Shown: piece after piece, positions 15,450 to 34,120 of the stretch | How positions within the stretch are numbered: the stretch's first letter is position 1 | Layout of the letters: the number at the start of each line of letters is the position of its first letter | Notes under the pieces: generated by a model | The model's input: only the letters and a program-made list of their open reading frames with translations | Databases searched by the model: none | What the model was told of the DNA's origin: nothing | Translations under genes and position numbers: made by a program | Source: a virus | Virus record (IMG/VR): IMGVR_UViG_3300037193_001909 | Location: 1-56,838 of that record | Reading direction: 5' to 3' (one strand) | Length of the DNA: 56,838 nucleotides

Positions 15450-16373
15450 ATGCAGCTGTGGGGAACCAACTCCCTCGGTGGCTTCATGTACAGCGACAAC
15501 CTGAGCAAAAAGCTCCGGACGGCGCTGCAGCCCGCGGTTCGTTTCCGCCAGTTCGCGGACGCCAAGGAGGCCTTCGGCCTCGGCGTCGGCGACACCTTCA
15601 ACTGGAACATCTATTCGGATGTTGCCGATGAGGGCGGAGAACTGCAGGAAACCGAGACGATGCCGGAAACCGGCTTCACGATCGACCAGAACTCGCTGAC
15701 CATCACCGAGTACGGCAACAGCGTGCCGTTCACGAAGAAGCTCGACGATCTGTCCGAACAGCCGGTCACCGAGATCATCCACAAGGTGCTCAAGAACGAT
15801 GCACGCAAGACGCTCGACACGGCTGCGTACAATCAGTTCAACCTGAGCCCGCTGCGCGTCACCGCGAGTTCCGCGACGGCAATCACCGTTGCGACCGGCG
15901 GCACGCCGGCGCTCGCGCACCAGGCCGAGCTCAACCACGATCACGTCAAGCTGATCGCAGACGAGATGGCCGAGCGCGAGATCCCGACGTACGACGGCGT
16001 GAACTACATGGCCGTCTTCCGTCCGCGCGCGCTGCGCGCGCTGAAGGATGACCTCGAGGCGGTCAACCAGTACACCAGCGAAGGCTGGCACGTGATCATG
16101 AACGGCGAGAAGGGTCGTGCGGAAGGCATTCGCTTCTGCGAGCAGACCAACATCGCCGCGGCGGACTTCACCTTCTCGGATCGTGGCTTCTTCTTCGGTA
16201 GCGATACCGTTTGCGAAGCCTTCGCGATCCCCGAGGAAATCCGCGGCAAGATCCCGACCGACTACGGCCGCAGCCGCGGCGTGGCCTGGTACGCCGAGCT
16301 CGGTTACGGCCTCGTGCACGACAGCGCCGATCAAGCCCGCATTCTCGTGTGGGACGGCCTGGAAGCGACCTAA
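15450..16373 (+). CDS. major capsid protein (N4-gp56 family, HK97 fold)
   Basis: 307 residues from ATG 15450, with AAGGGG about 9 bases upstream in an A/C-rich leader (15401-15449). The order fits N4-gp56-type coats: an N-terminal arm, GDTFNWNIYSDV, ETETMPETGF, the ITEYGNSVPFTKKLDDL strand pair, the spine helix EIIHKVLKNDARKTLDT, and a C-terminal GRSRGVAWYAELGYGLVHDSA. Position after the scaffold supports it. Confidence 0.9.
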   Translation: MQLWGTNSLGGFMYSDNLSKKLRTALQPAVRFRQFADAKEAFGLGVGDTFNWNIYSDVADEGGELQETETMPETGFTIDQNSLTITEYGNSVPFTKKLDDLSEQPVTEIIHKVLKNDARKTLDTAAYNQFNLSPLRVTASSATAITVATGGTPALAHQAELNHDHVKLIADEMAEREIPTYDGVNYMAVFRPRALRALKDDLEAVNQYTSEGWHVIMNGEKGRAEGIRFCEQTNIAAADFTFSDRGFFFGSDTVCEAFAIPEEIRGKIPTDYGRSRGVAWYAELGYGLVHDSADQARILVWDGLEAT

Positions 16374-16862: not shown

Positions 16863-17126
16863 ATGAGTTCGTTCAAGGCAGGCAAGACCATCGACTCGCC
16901 GGAGAAGAGCAAAAAGAAGACGCTTTCCAACGGCGGCGGTGACGGCAAGATGTCCACGGAGTCCGCGGGCATCAAGACCGGTCTGTCGGAGCGCATGGCG
17001 CTGGACACGAAGAGCGGCGATCCGCAATTCGACACCAAGCGCAATTCGCTGACCGGCAACGCCACGGAGCGTCGCAAGCCGACCAACTACAAGTCGGTCG
17101 CTGGCGGCTTCCAGATCGAGGAGTAA
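16863..17126 (+). CDS. hypothetical protein, 87 aa, low complexity
   Basis: Preceded by GGGAGGTGATCC, an almost ideal SD, which suggests high expression. The 87 residues are Lys/Ser/Gly-rich and look disordered (PEKSKKKTLSNGGGDGK). Not recognised. A hairpin terminator-like element follows 14 bases after its stop. Confidence 0.7.
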   Translation: MSSFKAGKTIDSPEKSKKKTLSNGGGDGKMSTESAGIKTGLSERMALDTKSGDPQFDTKRNSLTGNATERRKPTNYKSVAGGFQIEE

Positions 17127-17140
17127 GCCGATACGACGAG

Positions 17141-17166
17141 GGCGGCCGGTGACGGCCGCCTTCGTT
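17141..17166 (+). terminator. hairpin with GNRA loop, probable weak or partial terminator
   Basis: GGCGGCCG (17141-17148) pairs perfectly with CGGCCGCC (17153-17160) around a GTGA tetraloop, followed by TTCGTT. The U tract is poor, so partial read-through from strongly expressed head genes into tail genes is more likely than full stop. Confidence 0.6.
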
Positions 17167-17178
17167 CATGGAGGATCC

Positions 17179-17373
17179 ATGAAGAGGAAACCCCAAAAGG
17201 CGCTGAAAGCTCCGAACGTGAGCATCAGCGACTACGACATCAAGCCGATGACCACCGAGGCCGCCTTCAAGAAAGGCGCCGACCTCGCCGAGGGCATCGC
17301 CGGGCGCGTGGAAATCAGCACGCGCTACGAGCAGGGAGAGGCCGACTGCAGCCACCCCGAGCAGCACTACTAA
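17179..17373 (+). CDS. hypothetical protein, 64 aa
   Basis: ATG 17179 lies 4 bases after GGAGG, just downstream of the hairpin; the in-frame GTG at 17149 falls inside the hairpin loop and is rejected. The N-terminus is basic (KRKPQKALKAP) and the C-terminus contains HPEQHY. Not recognised. Confidence 0.65.
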   Translation: MKRKPQKALKAPNVSISDYDIKPMTTEAAFKKGADLAEGIAGRVEISTRYEQGEADCSHPEQHY

Positions 17374-17386
17374 CCAGGAGCACCCC

Positions 17387-17806
17387 ATGACCGAGTCCAT
17401 CAAGACCCTCAACCGCGCCAAGCCGTTCATCGAGGTGCGCGACCGCGCGCGCCCGAACGTGAAGTTCCAGCAGGGCGAGGATCTGTTCGACCGCCGCGGC
17501 AATTTCTTCGCGAAGGCGGACGTCGAAATCAACCTGCCCGAACCGCCCCCGCCCAAGGTGACGGTGCGCGAGATCTCCAAGCGCACGATCGGTACGACGA
17601 AGAGCCTCGTGCAGAAGGTGACGGAGCTCGTGGTGGGCGACAAGACCGTCGTCACCTCCGAAGGCGCGGCACCCGCCGAAGTCAAGCGCGGCCGCGGCCG
17701 CCCGCCGGGCAGCAAGAACAAGACCCCCATTGGCGTCGCCGAGACGCTCCGAAAGGCGGCGCAGGAGAACGCCGTGGCGCGCGCGGCGGAATCCGCCGCG
17801 TCGTAA
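17387..17806 (+). CDS. hypothetical protein with AT-hook, 139 aa
   Basis: AGGAG lies 8 bases before ATG 17387. The N-terminal half is mixed, with a PEPPPPKV linker. Residues about 100-112 read KRGRGRPPGSKNK, an AT-hook (GRP core between basic residues) that binds the minor groove of AT-rich DNA. In a GC-rich phage head operon this could be a DNA-associated virion protein. The last 25 residues are Ala-rich helical. Confidence 0.65.
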   Translation: MTESIKTLNRAKPFIEVRDRARPNVKFQQGEDLFDRRGNFFAKADVEINLPEPPPPKVTVREISKRTIGTTKSLVQKVTELVVGDKTVVTSEGAAPAEVKRGRGRPPGSKNKTPIGVAETLRKAAQENAVARAAESAAS

Positions 17807-17812
17807 CACGAC

Positions 17813-18499
17813 GTGACCTATCTCCAGCTGCTCCAGGCGCTGCACCGAGAGTGCGGCGCGGCAGGCGCTGCGCCGAGCGGCGTCACGAATCTCACCGGCG
17901 AGGCTAGTCGGCTCGCCGGGTACATTCGCGACGCGAATCTCGACATACAGAATCTGTGGCTGAACTGGAAATTCCTGTGGGACCAGGACAGCCGTGCGCT
18001 CACACCTACGAGCAATGTACTCGCGGCTCCGACCGGCATGGGCGATGGTCTGTGGGATGAGGACACGTTCAAAATCACGCCGGCGGGCGAGACCGTAGCG
18101 CAGCCGCTAATCGTGCAGGAGTACGACGAGGTCAAGTCCGAGGACGTCGACACGACGGCCGGTACGCCGTGGCGCGCTGTCATCATGCCGGACAACTCAC
18201 TGCGGTTTGAAGGCACGCCGGATGCCGCCGACACGTTCACTGCCGACTATTTCCGGGAGCCGGACGCAGATGAACTCACGGCAGCGGGCGATGAACCGTC
18301 GATTCCTTCCCGGTTCCATCAAGTGATCATCGGCGCCGCGCTCATCAAGTACGCGACCTACGAAGGTGCGGAGGAGATCCTGACCAAGGGGCAGGGCATA
18401 TACGCGGAGTACCTCGCGCGGCTCGAGAATAGCCAGCTCCCAAACCAGAGCAAGGCGCGCTTCCGTACCGGCGGGCACTTCACCGTCCGCGCGGAGTAA
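17813..18499 (+). CDS. head-tail adaptor protein
   Basis: GTG 17813 follows 6 bases after the previous stop. The 228 residues start with a helical YLQLLQALHRECG and RDANLDIQNLWLNWKFLWDQD. The middle is beta-rich (TPWRAVIMPDNSLRFEG, FTADYFREPDADEL). A helical HQVIIGAALIKYATYEGAEEI follows. This layout is that of adaptor proteins (gp6/gp4-like) that sit beneath the portal in short-tailed phages; position before the tail hub agrees. Confidence 0.65.
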   Translation: MTYLQLLQALHRECGAAGAAPSGVTNLTGEASRLAGYIRDANLDIQNLWLNWKFLWDQDSRALTPTSNVLAAPTGMGDGLWDEDTFKITPAGETVAQPLIVQEYDEVKSEDVDTTAGTPWRAVIMPDNSLRFEGTPDAADTFTADYFREPDADELTAAGDEPSIPSRFHQVIIGAALIKYATYEGAEEILTKGQGIYAEYLARLENSQLPNQSKARFRTGGHFTVRAE

Positions 18500-18502
18500 G
18501 CC

Positions 18503-20638
18503 GTGCCCAGCGGCTTCGGCACCACCAAGACGAAGTATTACCGGCTCTCGGGCGGGCTCGACGTCGTCACGCCGGCCCTCAGCATTCCGCCAGGCCGGTG
18601 CTTGGCGATGCTGAACTTCGAGCCGTTCTACAACGGCGGGTACCGTCGCTGCGACGGGTTCGAGCGCTTCGACGGCAGGCCCAAGCCCAGTGACGCCACG
18701 TTCGTCGGATTCACGGTCGATGACAACACCTACTTCAGCGTTGGCGACAACGTCATCGGCAGCTCGAGCGGCGCGACCGGCGTCATCTGCGGCGTGTCTG
18801 GCGACTGGGTCGGCGTAACCAAGGTAGTCGGCGACTTCGAAGAAGGCGAGCTTTTGAACGGCGTCGTCGAGGTCACGAGCGAACCCGAGTCGCTCGGCGC
18901 CGAGGACCAGGACATGGAGGACGAGTTCCTCCTGGGCGCGCAGGATGAATACCGCGACGATATCCAGCCGGTGCCGGGCGAGGGCCCCGTGCGCGGCATC
19001 TGGCAGCGCGGCGAGACAGTGTACGCGGTGCGCAACGACGACGACAGCGCCGGGCAGGCCATCCTGCATCGCTCGAGCGCGAGCGGCTGGACGACTTCCG
19101 GCATCACGATGTGTTGGTATCTGTTCTTCGATGGCGGCGGCGGCGGTAGTGCCCAGGCACTCCCCGCGGAGGGCACGACGATCAACGGGCAGACCAGCGG
19201 CGCGACTGCGGTCGTGCACCGCGTCGTCGAGCACGGCGGCGCGACGGGCACCAACGATGCATACGGGTACCTAGTGCTGCGCAGTGTCACGGGGAACTTC
19301 CAGAACAACGAGAACTTGCGCGTCAGCACGACGAAGTTTGCCGACTCCGCTTCGGTGCATGCGCGCTTCGCACTCCCGGCGGGCGGCACCTACCGGTTCG
19401 TGAATCACAACTTCTACGGCGGCGCTGATACGTACCGCACCTATGGCGTGAACGGCGTCGGCCCCGCGTTCGAGATCGACGAGGACCACTACGTCTCGCC
19501 GCTGCTCCTGCCGCTGACCGCCGAGGAGGACCAGCCGCCGGCGAACACGCCGCATCTCATCGCGGAGCACAAGAACTACCTGTTCCTGGCCTTCCCTGGC
19601 GGCTCGCTCGTACACACCGTGGTGGGCGACCCTCTCGTCGTGAACGGCTTCCTGGGCTCTGCGGAGTTCGGCATCGGCGCCGAGATGACGGGCTTGCACA
19701 GCGAAGCGGGCAACGTGCTCATCATCACGACCGAGAAGTTCACCCGCGGCCTGTACGGCTCGGACACTTCCGACTGGGACATGAAACCCATCGGCAAGAA
19801 CATCGGCGGCAAGCAGAATGCGGTGCGCCAGCTCGACACCGTTTATTCACTCGATGATCTCGGCATCACGAGCCTCTCGCGCGTACAGGCGTTCGGCGAC
19901 TTTACTGGCGCGACGCTGTCGCAGCTCGTGCAACCGATCGTCAAGCAAATGCGTACGCAGATCACGGACTCCACCGTCGTGCGCGGATCCAACCAGTTTC
20001 GCGTGTACTTCGAAGACGGCAGCGCGCTCGTGATGTACGTAAAGGCCGCCGGCAGCGAAAGTCCCGCTTCGACGGCAGGCGTCGAGTTCGGATTCTTGAG
20101 CTACCCGTTTGCCGTGAACCGGATTTACAACAGCGAAGACGAGACCGATCAGGAGCGCACCTATTTCGCAACGGATGACGAGGAGGGCGAGGGGCTGGTC
20201 TACGAAGACCAGATCGGTACTTCCTTCGACGGAGAGGCGATTGCGAGCTATCTGCGTCTCGCGTTCAACCACGTGGGTTCACCGGCCTGGCGTAAGAAGT
20301 TTCGGCGTCTCGACGTCGAGCTCACGACCACACGACAGCTCGATCTGCGCATTGTGCAGGACCTGTCGTACGGATCCGAGGAGAGCTCGAGCGGGCAGAC
20401 GAACCTCGTCTCGAACGACATCGATCAGACCGACGTGTTCGGCGGCGGCGGATTTTGGAATTCGAGCCAGTGGGACGAGTTTCAATGGGACGGCCAGAGT
20501 CTTTCGAATGCACGCGCGCCGCTCTCCGGAACCGGTGAAAATATCGGTTTTGTGATCTTCAACGAGAGTGCGGTGGCCGATTCCTTCATCCTGCAGGGCC
20601 TTACGGTGCACTACGACATCCGGCGCTTGCAGAGGTAG
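18503..20638 (+). CDS. tail hub / head-stabilisation protein (P22 gp10-like)
   Basis: GTG 18503 begins 3 bases after the adaptor gene. The 711 residues open with a pattern common to podoviral tail stabilisation proteins: LSGGLDVVTPALSIPPGRC followed by GGYRRCDGFERFDG. Long beta-propeller-like repeats follow (HLIAEHKNYLFLAFPGGSL, NVLIITTEKFTRGLYGSD, VYSLDDLGITSLSRV). The C-terminus is a beta domain. Likely part of the tail tube between adaptor and fibre. Confidence 0.7.
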   Translation: MPSGFGTTKTKYYRLSGGLDVVTPALSIPPGRCLAMLNFEPFYNGGYRRCDGFERFDGRPKPSDATFVGFTVDDNTYFSVGDNVIGSSSGATGVICGVSGDWVGVTKVVGDFEEGELLNGVVEVTSEPESLGAEDQDMEDEFLLGAQDEYRDDIQPVPGEGPVRGIWQRGETVYAVRNDDDSAGQAILHRSSASGWTTSGITMCWYLFFDGGGGGSAQALPAEGTTINGQTSGATAVVHRVVEHGGATGTNDAYGYLVLRSVTGNFQNNENLRVSTTKFADSASVHARFALPAGGTYRFVNHNFYGGADTYRTYGVNGVGPAFEIDEDHYVSPLLLPLTAEEDQPPANTPHLIAEHKNYLFLAFPGGSLVHTVVGDPLVVNGFLGSAEFGIGAEMTGLHSEAGNVLIITTEKFTRGLYGSDTSDWDMKPIGKNIGGKQNAVRQLDTVYSLDDLGITSLSRVQAFGDFTGATLSQLVQPIVKQMRTQITDSTVVRGSNQFRVYFEDGSALVMYVKAAGSESPASTAGVEFGFLSYPFAVNRIYNSEDETDQERTYFATDDEEGEGLVYEDQIGTSFDGEAIASYLRLAFNHVGSPAWRKKFRRLDVELTTTRQLDLRIVQDLSYGSEESSSGQTNLVSNDIDQTDVFGGGGFWNSSQWDEFQWDGQSLSNARAPLSGTGENIGFVIFNESAVADSFILQGLTVHYDIRRLQR

Positions 20639-20641
20639 ACC

Positions 20642-22423
20642 ATGGCGAATCCGTACTTCACATTCTCGACCCCACTCACGCCGGGTACCCGCGCGCGCGC
20701 GAACGAAATCAACCAGCTATTCCAGGATATTGAAACCGCGTTCGACAATATCCCGGCCGTAGGATCGGCACCCTTTGGCACACCGACAGTCAAGGTCGGC
20801 CTGACGTTCGCGCAAGGCTCGGCCAATTTTGTGCTGCGCTCGGATGCCCAGCTGGCGTTGGATGAGTCGATCGCGCCCACTTGGACCGGCGCGCATACGT
20901 TCACCAGCAGCACTACGCTGTTCAGCGCAGCGTCTCCCGCGCTGCGTCTGCACGAGACGGATGGCGGAAGCAACGAAAAGTATTGGGACTTCGTATCCAG
21001 CGGAGGCGATCTATTCTTTCAGACGGTCAATGACGCGCTGAATGCGAGCACGACGTTCATGCGGGCCAACCGCACCGGTACGACGGTCGACAGCATTGCG
21101 CTTACCTCGACCGCACTCACGTGGAACGGCAACGCAATCTTCACGACCGCCAATGACGGTGCGGGCAGTGGGCTCGACGCGGATCTGCTCGACGGCGTGC
21201 AAGGCAGCGACTACGCCAGAATTTCCTCCGCCAACGTGTTCACCGGCACGACGATGCGGCTTAGCAATGCGAACGACGCGCGGTTCATCCTGGACGACTC
21301 CAACGCCACGTCCAACGAGCGGTACTGGGAGTTGCGATCCACGTCGGGACAATTCTTCCTGCGCGCGCAGCAGGATAACGACGCGACCGGTGTCAACGCC
21401 ATCGTCGTCGATCGCACCGGCACCACGATCGACAGCATCGCGCTCGCCTCGACGGCGCTCACCTGGAATGGCAACGCGATCTTCACGACGGCGAACGACG
21501 GTTCGGGCAGCGGACTCGACGCGGATCTGCTCGACGGCCAGGAGGGCAGCTTCTACCGCGACGCAGGCAACATGAACGCCGGCAACCTGGCGTATGCGCG
21601 ATTCTCCGTGAACCTGCTTGCCAACGACGGCGCGAGCAGCGGGCTCGACGCGGATCTGCTTGACGGCGTGCAAGGTAGCGACTACGCCAGAATTTCGGCG
21701 ACGAATACGTTTACCGGATCGCAGATCATCAGCAATGCGTTGCCGGAGTTGCGGTTCAACGAAACAGACGCGGCGGCCAACAACCGCCGGTGGGATATCC
21801 ATGCGGCATCCGAGGAGCTGAGCTTCACTGCCGTTAACGACGCAGCGAGCGTGGAGACGTCCTGGCTGACCGTGTCGCGCACGGGGACCACTGTTGATTC
21901 CATCGCGCTCGCCGCGACGGCGTTAACCTGGAACGGCAACACGCTCTTCACGACTGCGAACGACGGCGCGAGCAGCGGGCTCGACGCGGATCTGCTCGAC
22001 GGGCAGCACGGCTCGTTCTACCAGAACGCCAGTAACATCAACGCCGGCACGCTGAATGCCGCTCGGCTGCATACGACGGTTGATTCCGGCACATACACCC
22101 CGACGCTGACGAATACGACCAACGTATCCAGCAGCACGGCGGCGCAGTGTCAGTACTTGCGAATCGGTAACGTGGTTACGGTTTCCGGCCAGATCTCGGT
22201 AACTGCCACGGCTGCGGCTGGCACGGATACAAACCTCGGCATAAGCCTTCCCATCGCGTCAAACATTGGAGCCCAGACAAACTGCAGCGGAGCCGGAGCT
22301 TGCTTGACGGCCCCGGTAGGTATTGCGGGTGACGCCGTCAACGACAGAGCGACTGCTAACTGGGCGTCGGCATCCAGCGTCGCGCAATCTCTGCGGTTCA
22401 CTTTTACGTACCTAATAGTGTAA
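20642..22423 (+). CDS. tail fibre protein
   Basis: 593 residues. The N-terminus (MANPYFTFSTPLTPG, then NEINQLFQDIETAFDNIP) is a typical virion-attachment head. The shaft contains four copies of a unit around SGLDADLLDGxxGSxY (starting near residues 177, 293, 334 and 446) with intervening ALTWNGNAIFTTANDG units. The last about 110 residues form a distinct beta domain with two cysteines (NCSGAGACLTAP), the probable receptor-binding tip. It is expected to bind a host surface glycan or protein. Confidence 0.85.
   Translation: MANPYFTFSTPLTPGTRARANEINQLFQDIETAFDNIPAVGSAPFGTPTVKVGLTFAQGSANFVLRSDAQLALDESIAPTWTGAHTFTSSTTLFSAASPALRLHETDGGSNEKYWDFVSSGGDLFFQTVNDALNASTTFMRANRTGTTVDSIALTSTALTWNGNAIFTTANDGAGSGLDADLLDGVQGSDYARISSANVFTGTTMRLSNANDARFILDDSNATSNERYWELRSTSGQFFLRAQQDNDATGVNAIVVDRTGTTIDSIALASTALTWNGNAIFTTANDGSGSGLDADLLDGQEGSFYRDAGNMNAGNLAYARFSVNLLANDGASSGLDADLLDGVQGSDYARISATNTFTGSQIISNALPELRFNETDAAANNRRWDIHAASEELSFTAVNDAASVETSWLTVSRTGTTVDSIALAATALTWNGNTLFTTANDGASSGLDADLLDGQHGSFYQNASNINAGTLNAARLHTTVDSGTYTPTLTNTTNVSSSTAAQCQYLRIGNVVTVSGQISVTATAAAGTDTNLGISLPIASNIGAQTNCSGAGACLTAPVGIAGDAVNDRATANWASASSVAQSLRFTFTYLIV
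21171..22020 (+). repeat. tail-fibre shaft repeats
   Basis: A 55-base unit at 21171-21225 recurs almost unchanged at 21642-21696. Shorter related copies lie near 21520 and 21978. Each encodes SGLDADLLDG followed by a variable VQGSDYAR or QxGSFY segment. Confidence 0.85.
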
Positions 22424-22426
22424 AAT
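22397..22426 (+). promoter_or_regulatory. possible sigma70-type promoter
   Basis: TTCACT and TAAAAT are separated by 18 bases at the end of the fibre gene, in one of the few AT-rich spots of the arm. It lies 36 bases before the PagL-like gene, so it could give that gene its own transcription. The match is modest. Confidence 0.3.
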
Positions 22427-22461
22427 ATTCCAAGGCATACCTCAGCAACAAAGGAGAACGC

Positions 22462-22965
22462 ATGTTCAAGACCCCCTGGAACCCCGGCAAGAAGGCGGCC
22501 TACGCCGTCACGGCGCTGCTCATCCTGCTAGCTGTGGGCTTCTGTACGACCGCCCGCAGCGCCGAGCCGCCACACGTTCAAATGGCTGTCGGCAGCACGG
22601 TTGTCCGCGGCACCACCCCCGCGGTGAGCGTCAACGTGGTCTATCCGGGGCGGGTGGGCGACGCGAGTTACGAATTCGGCGCCACGTTCATTGGCGAGAG
22701 CTCGTTCCGTGACGTCCTTCAACGCAACAACTTCGCTCTTCATGCTGGGATCGTCGATGGCTTCGGCCGGTTCGACGTTGGCCTGGGCGTGGCGTATCTG
22801 CAGAACACCGACGAGTACAATGGCAGCAATTTGAATTTTCAGCTGCTTTTGGGCTATCGGTTCAAGAGCTTGCCGTTGACGGTGCGTCTACAGCATTTCA
22901 GCAACGGCAGCACGAAAATGCCGAACAGGGGCCGGGATATGCTCCTATTTTTCTACCGATTCTGA
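22462..22965 (+). CDS. PagL-like outer-membrane protein (putative lipid A 3-O-deacylase)
   Basis: AAAGGAG lies 5 bases before the ATG. The 167 residues start with a signal peptide (hydrophobic 14-28, cleavage likely after ARSA). The rest alternates like a small beta-barrel and ends in aromatic LLFFYRF, an outer-membrane C-terminal signature. RLQHFSNGS gives H145-x-S147-N148, as in the PagL active site, and D159 sits 12 residues after the serine, where PagL has Glu. PagL removes the 3-linked acyl chain of lipid A. Alternatively it could be a barrel without activity. Confidence 0.6.
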   Translation: MFKTPWNPGKKAAYAVTALLILLAVGFCTTARSAEPPHVQMAVGSTVVRGTTPAVSVNVVYPGRVGDASYEFGATFIGESSFRDVLQRNNFALHAGIVDGFGRFDVGLGVAYLQNTDEYNGSNLNFQLLLGYRFKSLPLTVRLQHFSNGSTKMPNRGRDMLLFFYRF

Positions 22966-22972
22966 GGGCCCT

Positions 22973-24265
22973 TTGACCGTCCTGAGCGATCTCTACGCGC
23001 AAAACCCGGGTGCCGCGCCGACAACGGCGGCTCCGTCCGCGGCCGCGCCGAAAACGCCGCAAGCTGCGCAGGCCACGGCGAGCAATACGGGTCCTGCGGC
23101 GCAAGCGCAGGCCAGCACCATCGGGCCGACTCAGCAGGCACAGGCCTCGAATGTCGGGCCTCTGGGCCAAGCGCAGGCGGAGCGCGCGACTGCCACCGGG
23201 TTCACCGCGCAGACACAAGACGTACCGACCGGCGAGTTGGCCAGCAGCCAGCTGAATTCGATCACCGCGCAGGACAGCCCGCTCATGAAGCGCGCCAGGC
23301 AGGAGGGGATTCTCTCGGCGGCCCGCCGCGGCCTGCAGAATTCGAGCATCTCTGCCGGCACGGCACAAGGCGCTATGGTTGACCGAGCGACGCCGGTGGC
23401 GACGACCAACGCCGCGCAGCTGTCGGAACAGCGGTTGGCAAACCAGGCCGCAACCAACCGGGCGCGCGAGGTTTCCACGGGGCGCGAAACCGATGTGTCT
23501 GTGCGCAACGCAGAACTCGGCACGCAGACGAGCCAGTTCAACACCGGGCAGGCTGCGGACTCTGAGCGGCTCAACGCGCAGCTCAATACGCAGACGAACC
23601 AGCTCAACGCGGCGCAGGCAAACGATGCCGCCACCCGCAACGCGGAACTGCGGACGCAGACCTCGCAGGCGAACGCGCAGATGCAGAACGAACTCGCGAA
23701 ACTCAATGCGCAGCTCGAGACCGCAACCTCGCAGGGCAACGCCCAGGAAGTGAACAATATCCGCACGCGCATGGCGGAGCTGCAGACGCAGATCAACATG
23801 CAGGGTGCGGACATCAAGGCCCGCGCCAACGAGCTTACCGCGCAGGCGGAGAACGATCTGCGACAGGCGACGCTGACGCAGAACGCCGAGCTCAATCGGC
23901 AGTACCTCACCGGTACGCAGCAGATGGACTTGGCGACGATCCAGGGCCAGTATTCTGCGCTCATCCAGCAGAATCAGGCTGCGGCGAATCTGTACGAAGG
24001 CTACTTCCAAGCGATCTCCTCCGCCATGAGCAACCCGAATCTGAAGCCCGATCGCGCGGCGCAGATCGTGAGCGCCCAGCAAACTGCGCTCGCCGCCGGG
24101 CTGAAACTGATCGAAAGCCTGAATGCGGCTCCCGGTGCAACACCGGCGCCCGCCCCGAGCACCGGAGTCGCCCCGCCGCCTGCCGTTTCGACCTCGCCAT
24201 CGGTGAGTCCAGGCGGCACGATCGGCGTCGGCCGCAACTCCGGCCTGAATATCCAGCCGCGATAG
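22973..24265 (+). CDS. ejection (internal virion) protein, coiled-coil repeat type
   Basis: TTG 22973 starts 8 bases after the previous stop, with GAGGG 5 bases upstream; no ATG fits without losing conserved-looking sequence. The 430 residues are rich in Ala, Gln, Asn and Thr. Residues about 170-320 are a long helix with recurring Asn-Ala-(E/Q)-Leu and Gln-Thr units (NAELRTQTSQANAQMQNEL), likely a coiled coil. The C-terminus has a Pro/Ala linker. Its position after the fibre and before other internal proteins suggests ejection with the DNA. Confidence 0.6.
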   Translation: MTVLSDLYAQNPGAAPTTAAPSAAAPKTPQAAQATASNTGPAAQAQASTIGPTQQAQASNVGPLGQAQAERATATGFTAQTQDVPTGELASSQLNSITAQDSPLMKRARQEGILSAARRGLQNSSISAGTAQGAMVDRATPVATTNAAQLSEQRLANQAATNRAREVSTGRETDVSVRNAELGTQTSQFNTGQAADSERLNAQLNTQTNQLNAAQANDAATRNAELRTQTSQANAQMQNELAKLNAQLETATSQGNAQEVNNIRTRMAELQTQINMQGADIKARANELTAQAENDLRQATLTQNAELNRQYLTGTQQMDLATIQGQYSALIQQNQAAANLYEGYFQAISSAMSNPNLKPDRAAQIVSAQQTALAAGLKLIESLNAAPGATPAPAPSTGVAPPPAVSTSPSVSPGGTIGVGRNSGLNIQPR

Positions 24266-24274
24266 GAGCCAAGC

Positions 24275-25138
24275 ATGGGCTTTTTCAGCAAAATCAAAAA
24301 GGCACTGAAGTTCGCGTTCAGTCACGGCAAGTCCATCATCAAGGGCATGTTCAAGAACCCTGCGCGGTTCCTCACGGGCCCCGGCATTCTCGGCACGAAG
24401 ATCCACAACACGCTCTTCGGCACAAAATACAAGCCGTTGATCAATACGTTCGGCGGCGCGACGGAGCAGCAGTTCCAGGATTACGAAGCCAAGCACGGTC
24501 CAGGATCGCTCGGCTTCGCTCGGACGTTTCAAACTATCGCGGATACGGTCGCTGGCTTCTACGCAGGCGGCGGGCTCACCAAGCTCGGATCCAAGGCAGT
24601 CGGCGCCGTCACCTCGAAAGTCGGGAGCGCCGCAACCACCGGGGCCGGTGGTACCGGCAGCGCGGCAGGTACCACGGCAGGAGAGGCAATGCCCGAGATT
24701 GTCGTGAATGCCACGCGCAGCGGCAGTACACCGGTTGCCGGGATCACGGGCGGCGGTTCGAGTTCGTTCGTGGCCCAGCCGCCGACCGGGCCGCATCCGT
24801 TGAGCATTCCGTATCCCTCTGACCAAGCGGGGGGAGGCTTCCTCAGCCGCGTCTGGCAGGGCGTCACCTCGGAAAACGGCTTGCAGCTTCTCGGCGGCGC
24901 GCTGCAGGGGTACCAAGCGGATCAGCAGCAACGGCGTGCGATCGACGAACAGCGCCGGTACAGCCGGGCATTTACGCCCGAGGAGCTCGCCAGCATCACA
25001 GGGGGCATGAATGTGCCGGCGCCAAGGTTCCTGGAGAACGCTCGGCGGGTGCGGGATTATCTCGACGGGCGGCCGAGCGTCGGCGCCCCGACCATGACGC
25101 CCGAACAAACTGCGGCTTTGGCTCGGTCAGGAGGTTGA
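24275..25138 (+). CDS. putative ejection protein with amphipathic N-terminus
   Basis: ATG 24275 has GGAG 8 bases upstream. The 287 residues begin with a cationic amphipathic helix (GFFSKIKKALKFAFSHGK, then SIIKGMFK), suited to membrane contact. The middle is Gly/Ala/Thr-rich (about 105-165) and the C-terminus helical (RRAIDEQRRYSRAFTPEELA). Such features fit internal virion proteins that help DNA cross the envelope; no enzymatic motif is seen. Confidence 0.55.
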   Translation: MGFFSKIKKALKFAFSHGKSIIKGMFKNPARFLTGPGILGTKIHNTLFGTKYKPLINTFGGATEQQFQDYEAKHGPGSLGFARTFQTIADTVAGFYAGGGLTKLGSKAVGAVTSKVGSAATTGAGGTGSAAGTTAGEAMPEIVVNATRSGSTPVAGITGGGSSSFVAQPPTGPHPLSIPYPSDQAGGGFLSRVWQGVTSENGLQLLGGALQGYQADQQQRRAIDEQRRYSRAFTPEELASITGGMNVPAPRFLENARRVRDYLDGRPSVGAPTMTPEQTAALARSGG

Positions 25139-25139
25139 T

Positions 25140-25709
25140 ATGGGCATGTTGAAAGACGGTCGCGCGACGAGCGAAGAAGATACTGCCGAACCGGAAGGCA
25201 CTGCGGTGCCGCCCGAAGAGGCGAGTGCTGCACCGGAAGCCGAGGAGGCCGGCGACGAGGAGGGCAGTGGCTGGCCGGAGCATCTGCCGGAGGATCAGCA
25301 AGATGCGTTCGAAAGCGCGGTGACGATGCTCTATGACGTGCTCTACAAGAACCCGCAGACGAGCAAAGCCGTGCTGGATCAGGTCATTGCCGACGAGGAT
25401 CCACAGATTCGCGTCGAGTCCGTTGCGCGTGCGTCGGTGCTCCTCGTCCAGCAGGTGGACGCGAAGCTGAACCTGCCGGAAGAGATCATCCCGTACTTCA
25501 TCGCGACCGTGGTCGACCGGCTGATCGAGCTTGCCGAGAAGGTCAAGAAGGCCGCCTTCGATGACAACGATACGTTGGCAGCGCTGGCCGCGACCGCGGA
25601 GGGCGTGCGCGCGCTCTTCGCGCCCGAACAAGGCGCCGACCCCGCAGCGCCGCAGCCGCCCGCCGAGGCAGCTCCTGCGGCCGCCCCGGCTCCGGGAGCG
25701 CCGGCGTAA
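25140..25709 (+). CDS. hypothetical acidic virion protein, 189 aa
   Basis: ATG 25140 follows the previous stop by one base, with AGGAGG just upstream. Residues 10-60 are Glu/Ala/Pro-rich and disordered, 60-160 are helical (AFESAVTMLYDVLYKNPQTS, ATVVDRLIELAEKVKKAAFD), and the tail is Ala/Pro. Not recognised. It lies among ejection-type genes and shares its last base with the next gene (TAATG). Confidence 0.65.
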   Translation: MGMLKDGRATSEEDTAEPEGTAVPPEEASAAPEAEEAGDEEGSGWPEHLPEDQQDAFESAVTMLYDVLYKNPQTSKAVLDQVIADEDPQIRVESVARASVLLVQQVDAKLNLPEEIIPYFIATVVDRLIELAEKVKKAAFDDNDTLAALAATAEGVRALFAPEQGADPAAPQPPAEAAPAAAPAPGAPA

Positions 25710-26374
25710 TGGGCATTCTTTCGAAAAACGCCGGCGTGCTCGGCGGCATCGGCCATGCTCTCTCGAACATGGGCGCGCAGAAGCGCGAGGAGCGGCTGCA
25801 GGCGCTGCAGTATGACCGTGAGATGGCGATCCGGAAAATGGAGCAGGAGTTCCAAGCCGGCGAGAAGCAGAAAGATCGCACCCACGACGCGTCAGAAGGC
25901 AGCAAAGACCGGCAGCAGCGCGTCGGCGATAGCATGCGCGCAGACGACCGCGCGCGCAACGAGTTGGAGTCTCGCGAGCGAGAAGGCGAGAAGGACCGGC
26001 AGAGCCGCAAGGAGATCGCCAAGATCGAGGCCGATTCGCGCATGGGCGCGGCCGCGACACGTGGCAACAAGAAGCGCTTCACGATCAACAAGGTCGCGAA
26101 CGAGACAATGACCAAGGAAGGCGGGATGTCGAAGACCGAGGACATCGTGCTCACGGACCACAACAACAGCGGCCTCACGTACCGACAGCAGGGCGACGTC
26201 TTCGTCCCGCAAGGTGCCACGCCGCGGTTTCACGCGAACCGACAAGCCGCTGAGGCGCGGCTGCGTGAGCAGCCGGAGACCGTTGATGATTTCGTTCAGA
26301 AGTTCGGCTATCTGCCAGCCTGGTTCATGAAGCAGCAAGCCTTCGAGGTTTCTTCCACCGACGACGAGGAGTAA
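25709..26374 (+). CDS. hypothetical ejection-type protein, 221 aa
   Basis: The start ATG overlaps the previous stop. After a short Gly-rich N-terminus (NAGVLGGIGHALSNMG) comes a long charged helix (about 25-120; QALQYDREMAIRKMEQEFQ), then a small mixed domain ending in acidic residues. Similar layouts occur in internal virion proteins. No catalytic motif is visible. Confidence 0.6.
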   Translation: MGILSKNAGVLGGIGHALSNMGAQKREERLQALQYDREMAIRKMEQEFQAGEKQKDRTHDASEGSKDRQQRVGDSMRADDRARNELESREREGEKDRQSRKEIAKIEADSRMGAAATRGNKKRFTINKVANETMTKEGGMSKTEDIVLTDHNNSGLTYRQQGDVFVPQGATPRFHANRQAAEARLREQPETVDDFVQKFGYLPAWFMKQQAFEVSSTDDEE

Positions 26375-26381
26375 GCGCCCG

Positions 26382-26398
26382 GGCCGCCATGAGCGGCC
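26382..26398 (+). other. hairpin before the giant gene
   Basis: GGCCGC (26382-26387) pairs with GCGGCC (26393-26398) around CATGA. No U tract follows, so it is not a classical terminator. It ends 12 bases before ATG 26411, which lacks a clear SD, so it may influence translation of the large gene. Confidence 0.4.
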
Positions 26399-26410
26399 GC
26401 GCGCACGAGT

Positions 26411-29400
26411 ATGGGTGCATACGACGACTTTGGCTTCGAGCAGGACGGGCAGTCCCAGCCCTACCATCCGGTCTACGATCCGAACGATCCGGCGCTAGCC
26501 GGGTTGACGGACGAAGAAAAGCGCGCAGCCTCGCAGCCGGCCGGCAATGCGTACGACGACTTCGTCTTCGAAGAGCCCTCCGCCGAAGCACCGGCGGAAG
26601 AGCCCGGCCTCCTGGATCAGCTCATTGCCGGGTACCACGACTGGCGCGCGACGGAGCGCACCAAGGATGCGCTCGATGAACTCGGTGCGCTCAACCGTCT
26701 CGGCAAGGACGACAACGGGCCGCTGCGCAAGTGGCTCGAGAAGGCCGCGCCGCGCGCCGCCGCCGAATCGCTGTCCGATGCCGCGGAGCATCGCGCCAAG
26801 GCGGCGCAGACGCCGCTATCCCCGGAGACGCAGGCCTTTCTCGACGAGAACAGCGACAAGACGCTGTGGGAAGCGTTCAAAGCGGCCCCGGCGAAGATCA
26901 TCCTCGAACTCGGTGCGCGCAGCGGTCCGGCATCTGGCGCCGCACTCGGCACGGGCATCCTGGGCGGCGTTGCCGCCGGCCCTGTCGGCTTTGTCGCTGG
27001 CACCGGCATTGGGTCCGCACGCATCGAGTATGTGAATTCAGTGGTCGACGCGCTGCGCAGCCGCGGTGTCGACGTGACGAACGCAGAAGCCCTGGGGCGG
27101 GCCGTCAGCAACGAGCAGTTGATGGCCGAGGTCAACAAGGAAGCGACCATCCGAGCCGCGACGGTTGGCGGCGTGGACGCTCTCAGCAGCTTCATCGGCG
27201 GCAAGAACCTCGTCCCCGGCCTCAAGAGCAAGCTCGCCAAGGAGCTCGCCAATCTGGGCGTTCAGGCGCCGACTCAAGCGGCTCTCGGCGCCGGAGGCGA
27301 AGCGCTCGGCCAGGCCGCCTCGGGGCAGGAACTCGACACCCGGTCGATCGCCGCCGAAGCGGCGGGCGAATTCGTCACTGCCCCCGTGGAGGTGGCCACC
27401 GCCGTCGCCTCGGGGGTGCGAGGGCCCAAGACGCAGCCCGGCGGCAGCCCGATCGACGATGCCGCAAAGGCCCCGCCGCAGCTCGATGCGGTCGAGGAGG
27501 CGAGGCAGAAGGCGAAGGCCGAGACTGCCGCGCGCGGCGGCGATGCGTTGGATCAGGAAGTGGCCGGCGCGCTCGCGGCGGCCGAGATCAGCGCCCACAA
27601 GCGCGCCGCCTACGACACCACGGTCCGGCAGGTCCAGGAGGCTGCGCGCACCCTGCAAGTCGAACAGGACTACGCGCTCGGCACGGCGCAGTCCGAAGAG
27701 GATAGTGCCCGGGCACACGTCCAGGCGGAAGCCGCGGCCCGATACGAGCGTGGGCTCCCGGCACCGGCGCCGGAGCCGTTGGAGGTAGTCAAGACGACCC
27801 CCGCCGTGCGCCTCGATCCCGGCGGCGCACCCAGCGTACTCAACGCGCGCACGACGCGCCCGAGCACCGTCACCAAGCGCGAGCCCGCGAACATTCTCGG
27901 TTCTCGAACAGAGAACCCGGTCTTCGACGTCGCGGAACGCGAGCAAGCAGCCGCCAAGGACGTCGATTTCGACCGCGCCCGGATCCAGCGCGACCAACAG
28001 GTGGCCGAAGAGGCGCCCACCAAGGAACCGCTACGGGCTTCGATCGGCGAGTTCGCGACGCTCCAGGAACGCCGCGCCGCGAAGTCGGTCGTGCCTGCGA
28101 AACCCGTATCTCCTACGCCTGTAGTAGAGGACGTGGGTACAAATGTCGGCACTTCTGCACAAGTGCCGACAAATCTACCCAAGGCGCTGCCCGCGCCGCG
28201 CGAGGCTTTCACCGAGGTGGCGCCGGACGGCACGCCCCGGAAGGTCTCCGAAGCGGAGGTCGAGCAGCGGCAGGCGGACGCCGGCAAGCCCGTGCGCCAG
28301 ACCCTCACCCTGGGGCAGCGCCGGCTCGAGAACGCGGCGCCGATCCGGGAAGCCGCACCGCGCACGCTCGCCGAGCGCCGTGCCGCGCAAGAAGCCGCTG
28401 CCAAGACGCAGGTGCAGGAGATCGAGAGTGCGGCCGCCGAGGCTGCGTCCAGCCCGAAGAACGAGCTCGCCGAGCCCACCGAAGGGCAGCGCTCGGCCGG
28501 CAACTACAAGATGGGCCATACGAAGCTCTACGGGCTCGGAATCTCGATCGAGACTCCGAAAGGCGGCCTGCGCACCTTCAAGCTCCCGAACGGCACGACG
28601 GGCTCCCGGCGCATGCGCGACCACTACGGTTACGTCAAGCGCACCAAGGGTGCCGACGGCGACCACGTGGACGTATTCCTGGGCGACCGACCGGACAGCC
28701 AGAAGGTGTTCGTCATCGACCAAGTGAAGCAGGAAGACGGCTCGTTTGACGAACACAAGGCGATGCTCGGCTACGCGGATCGCGAGAGCGCGGTGCACGC
28801 GTACACCCGGAATTACCAGTCCGGTTGGAAGGTGGGACCCGTCACCGAGATGACGGTCGAAGAATTCAAGCGCTGGAGCCAGGAGGGGGATACGAAGTCC
28901 CCGCTGAAGCCGGACGAGATCCGAGTGCGGAAAACGCTGGCGGCACGCCGGCGCCCGCCGCAGGGTGATGACGGACGGCTGGCCGAAGACAACCAGCCGC
29001 CGAAGACTTTCGCGGAACGCGTCAAAGAGAAACTCGACGTTCGCGAGCCCGATTTCGCCAAGACGATGCAAGAGAAAATGCACTTCGGCAAGTCGGAGCA
29101 GCAGCTCGAAAAGGAAATCGACGAACTCGGGCGCGAATACTGGAACGGCGAAATCCCGCAAGGCGCACGGTACGAAGAGTTCAAGCGGAAACAGGACGCA
29201 TTGCAGGATGCTCTGTGGCGCTTGCGACAAGCGCGCCGCAACGCCGAACGCGGCGGCAACCTGCGCGACGGCGACAAAACCGCTTCGGATCGTAGTATAG
29301 CTACGACGCCGAAGGAAAAATCAAATGCACCCACCGGCTGGCAGAGCACGGAAAAGGGCACCGATGCGCCGCGCAGGCTCACGGCCGCGAAGGTGAAGGC

Positions 29401-32400
29401 TGCGCTCAAGCCGCTGTTCGACGAGATCGGACACGAAGGTCACGAGGTGCTCGACTCGCCGGCAGATATGCCGGAGGAAGTGCTGCGCCGAATGACGACG
29501 CAGCACGGCGCGCGACGTCTCATGAATGCGCGCGGCCTGTACGACCGGAAGACGGGCACCGTCTACATCTTCGCCGACAACCACACTTCAACCGAAAAGG
29601 CGGTGAAGACCGCCGTCCACGAGATCGTGGCGCACAAGGGCCTGAAGCAGCTCCTCGGGAAAAAGTGGGGCGAGCTCATGCTCGACGTCTACAAGAACGC
29701 GACCGATCAGAAGTGGATCGCCGACTACGCCAAACAGCACGGCCTGGACCCCGCCACGAACGACTCGGTGAAGGCCATCCTCGCCGACGAGTACATCGCC
29801 TACACCGCGGAACGAGACAGCGGCGTCGATCCCACGATGCTCGAGAAGGTCATCGCGGCAGTGCGTGCCGTGCTGCGCAAGCTCGGTGCGACTCTCGAAT
29901 GGACGGACTCCGAAATCCGGGTCCTGCTCCAGAAGTCGAAAAGCCAGCTCGCAAGCCAGCACGCCCGTGAAGTCAGCGACGACAGCGGCCGTCTCGCCGA
30001 CGGCGAGGTCGACCCGCCGCGCCAGGAGGCGAGCCATCCGAGCGCCCGGCTGTTCAAGATGGCGGTCACGGCGGAAGACCAGGCCAACTACAGCCCGGGC
30101 TTCGTGCGTTCGCGACTCAACGCCATCAAGGATGGCGGCGTCGACGCGATTCCGAAGGTGCTGGCGCTCGTGCCGCGCCGCAATCTCCCCGACTTCATCT
30201 CGCCGATGAAGATGCCGAGCCTTCGCGCCTACGTGCGCGCCGCGCAGCGCATGGACGGCCGCCGCTCCGAGCTCCTGCAGGGGGCGGAGGAGGTGGCGCA
30301 GCGCTGGCTCGACTTCGTACGCAAGAACAAGGAGGAAGCACGGATCCTGGGCGAGCTCATGCATGCGGCGACGCTCGCCGGCACCGACCCGGCGAACGCC
30401 TTCCAGTCGCAGCTCAAGGACGGCCGCCGTCACTCTGTCGAGCAGCGGCAGGCGGATGCGCAGCGCCGCGGCCAGCATGCCGCGCTCAAGCGGCACTGGG
30501 ATCGGCTCTCGCCAGAAGCCAAGGCGATATACATCGATGTCAGAGAAGCGTATGCCCGGCACCGCGATCTCGTACAGCTCGGCCTCGAGAACCGGATCAA
30601 CCAGGCCGAGGCCGACGGCAAGACGAAACAGGCACTGATCAATGCGTTGCGCGAGAAGTTCGAAGCAGGGCGCGTCACCGGCCCGTACTTCCCGCTCGCG
30701 CGCTTCGGCGACTACTGGGCCGTCGCGAAGGACAAGGCCGGCACCGTCATCTCGTTCACGCGGTTCGAAAGGGTGAGCGAGCGCAAGGCCTGGGTCGCCG
30801 AGATGCAGAAGCAGGGCTACAAGGTCGACACCGGCGTGAAGGACTCCAACGCCGCGCTCACCAAACGCATCGATCCGGGCTTCGTGGCGAAAGTCGCGGG
30901 CATGCTGGACGAGATCGACTCTGAAATGGCGGATGAAGTCTGGCAGACGTACCTGCGGGCGCTGCCCGAGATGAGCATGCGCCGCCACTTCATCCATCGC
31001 AAAGGGCGCCTCGGCTTCACGGCTGACGCGCTGCGCGCATTCGCGCACCAACAATTCCACGGCGCGCACCAGATCGCCAAGCTCGAGCACATGCCGGTGA
31101 TGGATTCACTCGTGAACCAAGCCGAACTCGAAGCGAAGAAGCTCGAGGGCACGGACGAGGAGATCTGGGCGGCCCGACTGGCGCAGGAGCTCGGCAAGCG
31201 ACACGAATGGGCGCGCAATCCGTCGTCCTCGCTCTGGGCGACGCGGCTCACCGCGCTCGGCTTCGCGTTCCATCTGGGCCTCACCCCCGCGGCCGCGCTC
31301 GTGAACCTGACCCAGACGCCGATCGTGGCCTTCCCAACGCTCGCTGCGAAGTACAACTACCTGGGCTCGGGCACAGAGATTCTGAAGGCCGCGGCAAGCT
31401 GGGCCGGCTCGCGCGGACCGTTGAAGCAGCGGTTGCGCGGCGATGAGCTCAAGGCGTTCGAAGAGGCCGAGCGCATCGGTCTTTTCGACAAGACGCAGGC
31501 GCACGACCTTGCGGGCTTGGGCGAAGACGGCGCGATGGACTTCGGCAGCACGCGGCAGCGGATCTCGAACATCATCTCCTGGCTCTTCCATAAGACGGAG
31601 CAAGCGAACCGCGAGGTCACGTTCCTCGCGGCCTACCGACTGGCACGCAAGAAGGGCCTTTCGCACGAAGACGCCATTCTCTCCGGCGAGGATCTCACGT
31701 GGGACTCGCACTTCGACTACTCGAACGCGAACAGGCCGCGCGCCCTGCAGCACGACGCTGCCAAGGTGATGTTCCTGTTCCGGCAATACAGCCTGAACAT
31801 GACCTACCGGCTGGCGCGCGACTTCAAGGACAGCATCAAGCACGAGTCGAAACAGGTGCAGAAGGAAGCGCAGAAGCGCTTCGCCGGCATCCTTGGCATG
31901 ACATTCCTGTTTGCCGGCACTTCGGGGCTTCCGATGTTCTGGCTCGCGGCGTTCGTGCTGAACCACATCTTCGGCGACGAGGACGAACCGTTCGACACGG
32001 AAGCCGCGATGCGCGCGCACCTGTTCGAAATGGGCGGCGAGGGCTGGTCCAACGCCGTGATGGACGGCCCGGTCTCCGCGATCTCGGGCGTCGATCTCTC
32101 GAGCCGCGTAGGCTTGAACAACCTCTGGTGGCGCGACCCGCCGCCAGGCACCGAGGGCGCAGCGCTCGGCGCGCACGTGCTCAAGGAGATCGCCGGTCCC
32201 GTCGTCGGCATTCCAATCGCAATGGCGGAGGCCGTGGCGCTCAAGGACGAAGGCCACGGCGATCGGGCGCTCGAGAAGGCCGCGCCGAAAGCGGTCGCCG
32301 ACTCGCTCAAGGCGCTGCGCTATGCGCGCGAGGGCGTGGCCAACAAGCGCGGCGACACGCTCATCCCGGCCGAGCAGATCTCCTCGAAGGATCTCTTCGT

Positions 32401-32749: not shown

Positions 32750-32912
32750 AGGCGACGTGTATGCCATGACGACCGAAGGCCCGAAGTGGATTCCGCTGGA
32801 GACACTGCTTAAAGAACTCCGTCGCCGCCAAATGGCGGAGTGGGCACGCGAAATGGAGACACGCCGCGAAGAGCGCGCGAAACTGCCTTGGTGGAAGCGA
32901 TGCTTCAGCTGA
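32742..32912 (+). CDS. small hypothetical protein, 56 aa
   Basis: ATG 32742 overlaps the end of the giant gene by 8 bases, with CAGGAG 8 bases upstream. Highly charged helix (KELRRRQMAEWAREMETRRE) and a C-terminal WWKRCF. It overlaps the endolysin start by 13 bases. Not recognised. Confidence 0.6.
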   Translation: MNEGDVYAMTTEGPKWIPLETLLKELRRRQMAEWAREMETRREERAKLPWWKRCFS

Positions 32913-33538
32913 CGAGTGATCAGCTCCGGAAGATCATGCCGCGCTGCGCGAACCCGGATGCCTGGACCGCGGCGCTGCAGCCGGCCATGCACCGCTTCGG
33001 GGTCGCCGCCAACAAGGAGCGCGTGCATCGGTTCCTGGCGCAGGTCGCCGTCGAGAGCGGCGAGCTCACCCGGCTCGAGGAGAATCTCTGGTACACCCCG
33101 GAGCGTCTCATGCAGGTGTGGCCGAAACGCTTTCCGACTCTTGCTGCCGCAGAGCCGTATGCCCGCGCACCTCACAAGCTCGCAAACTACGTGTACGCGA
33201 ATCGCGAGGGAAATGGCGGCCCTGCGTCCGGCGACGGCTGGCGATACCGCGGCCGCGGGCCGAAAATGATCACGTTTTCAAACAATTACGCCTGGCTCGG
33301 TAAGGAGCTCCAGCTACCCTTAGTCCAGTGCCCGGACATGGTTTTAACTAAATCCGTGGGCGCTCTTGCGGCAGCACTTTTCTGGAGTGAGAGAGGGCTC
33401 AACGAATTGGCGGACGACCTCCCGGACGATGACCAGGATTCGGATTTCGTCACCATCACCCGACGCATCAATGGCGGGACGGTCGGCCTTTCGAAACGGC
33501 AGGAGTATCTCAAGCGCGCGGAGCAAGTGATCCTATGA
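32900..33538 (+). CDS. endolysin, glycoside hydrolase family 19 (chitinase-like)
   Basis: Predicted to cleave peptidoglycan glycan strands at lysis. ATG 32900 is preferred; the frame is open to 32840 inside the previous gene. The 212 residues contain FLAQVAVESGELTRLEENLWY (about 38-58) with the catalytic Glu region of GH19 lysozymes, then DGWRYRGRGPKMITFSNNYAW (about 112) and a late FVTITRRINGG. No signal peptide, so release depends on a holin. It starts the lysis block. Confidence 0.85.
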   Translation: MLQLTSDQLRKIMPRCANPDAWTAALQPAMHRFGVAANKERVHRFLAQVAVESGELTRLEENLWYTPERLMQVWPKRFPTLAAAEPYARAPHKLANYVYANREGNGGPASGDGWRYRGRGPKMITFSNNYAWLGKELQLPLVQCPDMVLTKSVGALAAALFWSERGLNELADDLPDDDQDSDFVTITRRINGGTVGLSKRQEYLKRAEQVIL

Positions 33539-33762
33539 ACAAATTTCAGTGGCTGGCCGACCTACTGGCCGCGGCCGGCGGCCGGCGGTTCCTCATGACC
33601 GTAGGCGCGGGCATCATCCACACGTTGCTGCGCGTGGGTGATTTCATCTCGCAGGAGATCTACCGCGAGCTCACGATGGCAACCGTCGTCGTGTACATCG
33701 CCGCGCGTACGTACCAGCACACGCAGGATTCCAAGAATCGTGCGGCTCCCGCAGCTGGCTAA
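33535..33762 (+). CDS. small membrane protein, holin candidate 1
   Basis: 75 residues in ATGA overlap with the endolysin. Two hydrophobic stretches (FLMTVGAGIIHTLLRVGDFI and MATVVVYIAARTY) are separated by a short charged part; the tail is hydrophilic. This layout is common for phage holin-like genes beside an endolysin. A second candidate lies at 34234, so which one is the holin is undecided. Confidence 0.55.
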   Translation: MNKFQWLADLLAAAGGRRFLMTVGAGIIHTLLRVGDFISQEIYRELTMATVVVYIAARTYQHTQDSKNRAAPAAG

Positions 33763-34120
33763 TCCGTGGGCGCTGCTCGGCGGACTGATCCTGGTGATCG
33801 GCCTCGTCGCCGGCGCGTACATCAAAGGCGGCCGCGATGCGCGGAACGCCGAAGCTGCGGCTGCCGCACGCGAAGAGAAGATCGGCCAGATCGCCTACGA
33901 CAACGCGCAGCGCGCGGCAGCCGAAGCAATCGCCGGCATCACCATCAAACACGTCACGACCAAGCAAACGCTCGAGAAGGAGATTATCCGTGATCCGATA
34001 TACCGTGATTGCGTCCATAGCGATCCTACTTTCGAGCTGCTCAACCAACTCCTACAAGGAGCGCCCGGTAAGTCCTCTGGTGGTCGCGAATTGTCCCCTG
34101 TCCCTGGGGGTCCTCAATGA
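33740..34120 (+). CDS. Rz: Rz-like inner-membrane spanin
   Basis: GTG 33740 gives 126 residues. One N-terminal membrane anchor (PWALLGGLILVIGLVAGAYI) is followed by a periplasmic helix (RDARNAEAAAAAREEKIGQI). The C-terminal DPIYRDCVHSDPTFELLNQLL is a typical Rz ending with a single Cys for dimer formation. The outer-membrane partner is nested in the +1 frame from 33990. The pair fuses inner and outer membranes at the last step of lysis. Confidence 0.8.
   Translation: MRLPQLANPWALLGGLILVIGLVAGAYIKGGRDARNAEAAAAAREEKIGQIAYDNAQRAAAEAIAGITIKHVTTKQTLEKEIIRDPIYRDCVHSDPTFELLNQLLQGAPGKSSGGRELSPVPGGPQ

Follow-up and report, generated by a model that had tools for sequence, protein, structure and literature searches.

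A PagL family gene beside the tail-fibre gene of a tailed phage, probably encoding a lipid A 3-O-deacylase

Phages alter the O-antigen and core sugars of lipopolysaccharide (LPS), whose buried anchor, lipid A, is not an exposed receptor. The closest described system to the locus analyzed here is PagL, with the solved structure 2erv of the Pseudomonas aeruginosa enzyme, which has a triad of His126, Ser128 and Glu140. LpxR (lipid A 3'-O-deacylase) is an outer-membrane enzyme with a larger barrel and another active site. Lom of phage lambda (Ail/OmpX family, PF06316) is a small phage-encoded outer-membrane barrel, and Lom proteins are not known to have the PagL catalytic motif. PMC3342100 places Lom in the outer membrane.

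The accessible literature, in which subscription journals are thinly covered, yielded no description of a PagL, an acyloxyacyl hydrolase or a lipid A deacylase from a phage. Searching 50,697 records of deposited phages, a set from which those close to the window may be missing, by tblastn, which is less sensitive than a profile, gave no matches with PagL queries from two members of the viral clade described below (clade A) and one other phage gene (E limit 1) or with two cellular-type queries (E limit 0.1).

Comparison of the protein under study with 2erv revealed a predicted eight-stranded outer-membrane barrel, an H-x-S-N...N-x-G motif late in the barrel, an aromatic C-terminal residue and a signal-like N-terminus as common features. 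The differences are that the gene belongs to a phage, that aspartic acid takes the place of glutamic acid (as is usual in other homologues), that the protein falls in a separate viral clade with an FGR-x-[DE] stretch, and that its activity is a prediction. It resembles Lom as a small phage-encoded barrel and differs from it in carrying the PagL catalytic motif and in having no PF06316 match; this profile matched none of 10 viral records at E <= 0.001 and did match an E. coli control, and membership of the Lom/Ail family was ruled out by the missing match. In contrast to LpxR, PagL is the only Pfam family listed for the protein up to an E-value of 10.

The phage and the reading frame

The DNA used for the analysis (the window) spans an IMG/VR virus record from end to end (56,838 bases), and its gene content is that of a tailed phage. 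The genes that matter here are as follows.

463-2864: small and large terminase
3643-5853: SU10-type portal
15450-16373: capsid
20642..22423, + strand: tail-fibre gene directly 5' of the PagL gene with 38 bases between (tail fiber protein families phrog_25747, 5342 and 8443)
22462..22965, + strand: PagL-like predicted outer-membrane barrel of 167 amino acids, ATG start, protein P0001 (PF09411, structure model and clade)
22973..24265, + strand: next gene, TTG start, 7 bases 3' of the PagL gene (no family scored above its cut-off)
32840-33538: GH19-like lysis candidate (22.9 bits, under its cut-off of 25.5)
33638..34120, + strand: Rz-like spanin (phrog_8821, 1152 and 1026, best E 7.2e-5)

The opposite strand carries genes for DNA polymerase, helicases, an exonuclease and a gp2.5-like protein. 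The Rz-like spanin suggests that the host has an outer membrane and fits a Gram-negative one. The first 25 kb of the window had no near match among the 50,697 deposited phages, and a search for relatives of the upstream tail protein (20642..22423) found none. A tyrosine integrase was not found in the record, which may be incomplete. A 2112-amino-acid protein encoded at 26411-32749 (+ strand) has an inorganic pyrophosphatase-like domain and LPD39, and its C-terminal part matches a DarB-like antirestriction family.

An earlier note on this DNA had described a PagL-like lipid A deacylase with a signal peptide beside the tail fibre, and its reading frame (22462-22965, + strand, 167 amino acids, ATG start) and its position next to the fibre gene were found to be exact. 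The following signals were identified in and ahead of the gene.

22397..22426, + strand: sigma-70-like promoter pattern TTCACT-18-TAAAAT, weak (9/12 positions)
22450..22456, + strand: Shine-Dalgarno-like AAAGGAG, by its sequence a good ribosome-binding site
22462..22563, + strand: putative signal peptide, residues 1-34 (cleavage site placed by eye; model helix 8-27)
22894..22905, + strand: codons of H145-F146-S147-N148, aligned to 2erv
22936..22938, + strand: codon of D159, presumed third member of the triad, Glu in 2erv (alignment and position survey)

Read by eye, the N-terminus has a basic n-region, a hydrophobic stretch at residues 12-27 and then CTTARSA-E, and so looks like a signal peptide; the last residue is phenylalanine. 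This terminal residue and the signal-like N-terminal helix of the model are consistent with an outer-membrane protein. Of the promoter proposed in the earlier note, the pattern itself is present and is compatible with separate expression of the PagL gene, but such patterns are no more frequent here than chance allows: one was observed in 17000-27000 against a shuffle mean of 1.6 (sd 1.3), and one in 22300-23100 against 0.3 (sd 0.5), so that its sole support is its position just 5' of the gene. Terminator-like hairpins on the + strand lie at 22379-22397, where the fibre gene ends, and at 22927-22946, within the last part of the PagL gene; both strands of 22300-23100 taken together hold three such hairpins against 0.7 (sd 1.0) in shuffles.

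Family, fold and catalytic positions

Comparison with Pfam placed the protein in PF09411 (PagL) with 39 bits against a cut-off of 23 (E 1.1e-9), over residues 104-166 only, and the same profile scored 39.2 bits on the window DNA. A match to the protein was absent from NCBIfam, and PHROGs gave one weak unnamed match (E 0.051). Among PDB sequences 2erv was the best match and the only one below an E-value of 1, with E 0.0015 for the single query and 1.3e-5 for a five-row phage profile; identity is 26% over 125 residues. H145, S147 and D159 align with the His, Ser and Glu of 2erv, and D159 lies 12 residues past S147. The H-x-S-N motif at 145-148 named in the earlier note is present in the translation together with the acidic residue, and the PagL-likeness claimed there is borne out by both the Pfam profile and the best solved match. 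Found by itself, H-x-S-N is weak evidence, since it occurred in 1,015 of 100,000 protein shuffles and, among the 531 open frames of at least 60 amino acids in the window, in two. For the complete motif, H-x-S-N-x6-N-x-G-x-[DEN], the counts were three of 100,000 shuffles and one of the 531 frames. The observation in the earlier note is confirmed and its reading as a PagL-type protein supported, and by Pfam the window protein is a member of the PagL family.

AlphaFold2 with an alignment of 20 sequences (nine phage and 11 cellular-type) predicted eight strands with a pLDDT of 84.3 and a pTM of 0.74; the other four models from this alignment reached a pLDDT of just 59-71. Because cellular PagLs could steer this model, the prediction was rerun with the five clade A sequences only, and the same eight strands were obtained, together with two short ones, each three residues long (pLDDT 77.9, pTM 0.70). 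The earlier note had named a fold other than an eight-stranded barrel as the outcome that would speak against it, and the eight strands appear in the predictions with and without cellular PagL rows. Foldseek placed 2erv first for both models (E 1.3e-5 and 7.3e-5) with moderate TM-scores of 0.56-0.63. VIA-align also gave 2erv as the best solved structure, with Z 17.9 and 18.3, an rmsd of 1.8 and 125 residues aligned; the runners-up had Z 15.5 and 15.1, which is 2.4 and 3.2 lower. Entries for PagP (lipid A palmitoyltransferase) scored Z 9.1-12.5, below PagL. A common barrel by itself would say little, but PagL ranks first by sequence as well. A comparison with predicted structures of viral proteins gave three matches at E <= 0.001, the best being a phage outer-membrane barrel of unnamed function, 12% identical, and the name PagL was absent among the 50 matches listed.

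The amino acid at the acid position was surveyed in a sample of 185 genomes of one class, in which PF09411 was found at E <= 0.001 in 51 and above cut-off in 48. The motif was present in 28 of the 30 best-matching loci (L058 and L064 lacked it and were not counted). The filter used for this prescribes H, S or T, N, N and G and leaves the acid position free. The 28 bacterial homologues have aspartic acid in 12, asparagine in 11, threonine in three, and glutamic acid and glutamine in one each, and one locus (L054) has a glutamic acid one place ahead of this position. Aspartic acid or asparagine is therefore the common letter in the bacterial sample, and the glutamic acid of P. aeruginosa is rare there. 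The earlier note had singled out aspartic acid in place of glutamic acid; D159 does align with the Glu of 2erv, but the exchange is not peculiar to the phage protein, and a special meaning for it was ruled out by this survey. A scan of a genome collection with four phage proteins gave 26 loci, of which 25 belong to Burkholderiales by title and one to a Bacteroidales bin. Asparagine occupies the acid position in 23 of them and aspartic acid in three; many are near-copies, and H-[FC]-S-N was part of the patterns by which all of them were retrieved. The Bacteroidales locus (L022, 7686-8825) encodes a 380-amino-acid protein with H-F-S-N-G-S near the middle, apparently a PagL-like barrel with more sequence attached. 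Three PagL-like copies of Herbaspirillum sp. RV1423 (L030, L032, L035) are located at the ends of contigs, a hint of a repeated element. From plasmids came four PagL matches, all weak (E 0.3-0.6).

Relatives in viral contigs and their genomic position

A search of viral contigs with the window protein alone found no relatives; the scans as a whole yielded nine distinct genes besides that of the window, namely L013 (= L006), L012 (= L008), L010 (= L011, one gene found unchanged on two contigs) and L082, and L040-L044 as more distant ones. A scan with the FGR stretch as bait gave 24 stretches, of which L006 and L008 were already in hand. Of the remaining 22, all new loci, three were recognised when searched with a profile, two of them (L081 and L092) being the L010/L011 gene again. 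Five further viral-contig loci (L002-L005 and L007) with a Pseudomonas-type PagL and glutamic acid at the acid position were set aside as cellular type, and L002 and L007 grouped with bacterial PagL when placed in the tree. A large-terminase match was found in six of the 10 records G000-G009, which hold the window and its relatives except L082, and in seven of 12 when two Pseudomonas-type records are included. In the record of L041 (G005, 625-1497) the terminase match runs through three TGA codons and one TAG, as in a broken gene or a recoded phage.

In a 49-sequence tree the window protein, L082, L010, L013 and L012 formed clade A with support 100/98 and no bacterial members. The other five phage genes were not reliably joined to it; their placement is uncertain because of long branches, and a single clade of all ten phage genes was neither favoured nor rejected (p-AU 0.43). 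Clade A proteins are 32-47% identical to that of the window. All five keep H145, S147, N148, N155 and G157, and the acid position is aspartic acid in four and asparagine in one; in L040-L044 the D or N was demanded by the search pattern and is not evidence. The FGR-x-[DE] stretch occurs in all five clade A proteins, where that of L082, fetched with this stretch as bait, does not count as evidence, and in none of the other five phage genes. In bacteria it was found in none of the 28 motif-holding survey proteins and in one (L022) of the 26 genome-collection proteins. By family profile, predicted fold and motif the window protein is a PagL, on a branch so far found only in viral contigs.

Analysis of gene neighbourhoods revealed that three of the five clade A genes follow a tail-fibre gene either directly or with a single gene between. 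The window gene follows its fibre gene directly; L010/L011 is separated by one gene from a fibre gene of the same type; and L082 comes 7 bases after a fibre gene of the lambda-J type and is followed further on by a lipoprotein-family gene and an Rz-like spanin gene. The PagL gene of record G006 lies one gene (877 amino acids) behind a T7-like fibre gene. On fragment G198 a gene of the PHROG 'lipoprotein' family 462 (L098, 15924-16199, + strand) comes directly after the PagL gene and is followed by an Rz-like spanin gene. Elsewhere the neighbours are replication genes: L012 lies between cytosine methylase and SNF2-type helicase genes near DNA polymerase, L013 about 4 kb from a primase-helicase gene, and L044 after a DNA-polymerase fragment and two small ORFs. 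No informative neighbours were found for L040-L042. The gene of L012 sits inside a replication module that its record has in common with the window. Between that record (G001) and window 34418-45174 the genes for DNA polymerase, helicase, exonuclease, a gp2.5-like protein and a 'DNA transfer protein' are common at 27-42% identity. These varied neighbourhoods suggest that the PagL gene travels by itself, as an accessory gene, and tends to settle near the fibre, as seen in four of 10 cases.

Proposed role in infection

The window gene most likely encodes an active lipid A 3-O-deacylase that would remodel the outer membrane of the infected host. We infer activity because the motif is intact. The protein would be exported by Sec and its barrel folded by the BAM machinery of the host, with the His145-Ser147-Asp159 triad facing the outer leaflet, where it would hydrolyse the ester-linked 3-O acyl chain of host lipid A during infection. 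Under-acylated LPS would pack more loosely and would favour curvature and the shedding of vesicles. The phage may in this way loosen the outer membrane at a late stage of infection, which would aid its release and cause LPS to be shed, and the cell or its debris would perhaps be a worse target for the progeny of the phage. In PMC4958258, active PagL expressed in Salmonella gave more vesicles, with a His163/Ser165-to-Ala variant as inactive control, and the rise was explained by membrane curvature. A mutagenic primer given there translates to A-F-A-N-G-S, from which the Salmonella wild type would be H-F-S-N-G-S, the same as in the window protein. On the strength of this vesicle result we consider outer-membrane loosening with LPS shedding the likeliest effect, and exclusion of further phages the next.

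The absence of a tyrosine integrase makes a role in lytic growth likelier than lysogenic conversion, weak as such an absence is in a record that may be incomplete. A PagL of a phage branch that deacylates host lipid A in infection and loosens the outer membrane is, taken as a whole, the explanation we consider probable, its benefit to the phage being the most conjectural part. Against it stand the asparagine in one of five clade members, the low identity to 2erv, the moderate Foldseek TM-scores, the partial Pfam coverage and the low pLDDT of four of the five models first predicted. With a spanin and a GH19-like candidate already in the window, extra damage to the outer membrane is not obviously needed. 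The earlier note had also suggested a change of the LPS receptor; lipid A lies buried, however, so that cutting off its 3-O chain would alone not do away with a receptor made of sugars.

The same active enzyme may instead act against superinfection or self-adsorption: encoded next to the tail fibre and perhaps expressed from a promoter of its own, it would change the outer membrane so as to block injection through LPS-dependent triggering by further phages or by the progeny of the phage. That four separate phage genes (window, L010/L011, L082 and G006) are found so close behind fibre genes of differing types, alike only in the window and L010, argues for this possibility, as does the position of the sole promoter-like site of 17000-27000 just ahead of the gene. 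We regard it as rather doubtful: L012, L013 and L044 near replication genes indicate that the link to the fibre is a loose one, accessory genes commonly land in the region behind a tail fibre, lipid A is not the exposed receptor, and the single promoter-like site is within chance.

It is improbable that the gene is cargo of benefit to the host (tolerance of cationic peptides, an altered surface), a moron like lom of lambda. A single gene without a counterpart found in deposited phages would suit such cargo; lom lies behind the J-type tail fibre of lambda just as the PagL gene of L082 does behind its own, and G006 carries an integrase. An integrase was not found in the other nine of 10 records searched, window included, several of which are fragments.

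Unlikely to about the same degree is a barrel of the PagL fold that is no longer catalytic and serves as a plain surface protein, like OmpX/Lom barrels. The asparagine of one clade member would agree with it, and predicted structures exist of other phage outer-membrane barrels for which no enzyme role is named; but His, Ser, Asn and N-x-G are invariant in the clade in spite of its divergence, Asp and Asn are common in bacterial homologues too, and an Ail_Lom match is absent.

That the gene is a bacterial stray, brought in by misassembly or on a chimeric contig, is suggested by the commonness of cellular PagLs (51 of 185 genomes of one class) and by a GC of 0.597, below that of the 14 other window genes compared (0.607-0.665). 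Such contamination is very unlikely and was rejected on the spacing of the gene inside the virion block (38 and 7 bases from its neighbours) and on its nearest tree relatives, all from viral contigs. Base composition is not decisive; GC3 (0.78) is inside the range of the other genes (0.652-0.881).

Beyond the window, we suggest only tentatively that several phage lineages exchange a dedicated, phage-evolved lipid A deacylase, often beside tail-fibre genes, for remodelling of the LPS anchor in lytic growth, a step for which the searches above gave no match in deposited phages. If the window protein is an active deacylase, the finding bears on lysis of Gram-negative hosts, on vesicle shedding and on how cells resist a second phage. 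By acting on the lipid anchor, such an enzyme would offer another way of altering the cell surface in infection, and its relatives would constitute a set of small, diverse deacylases.
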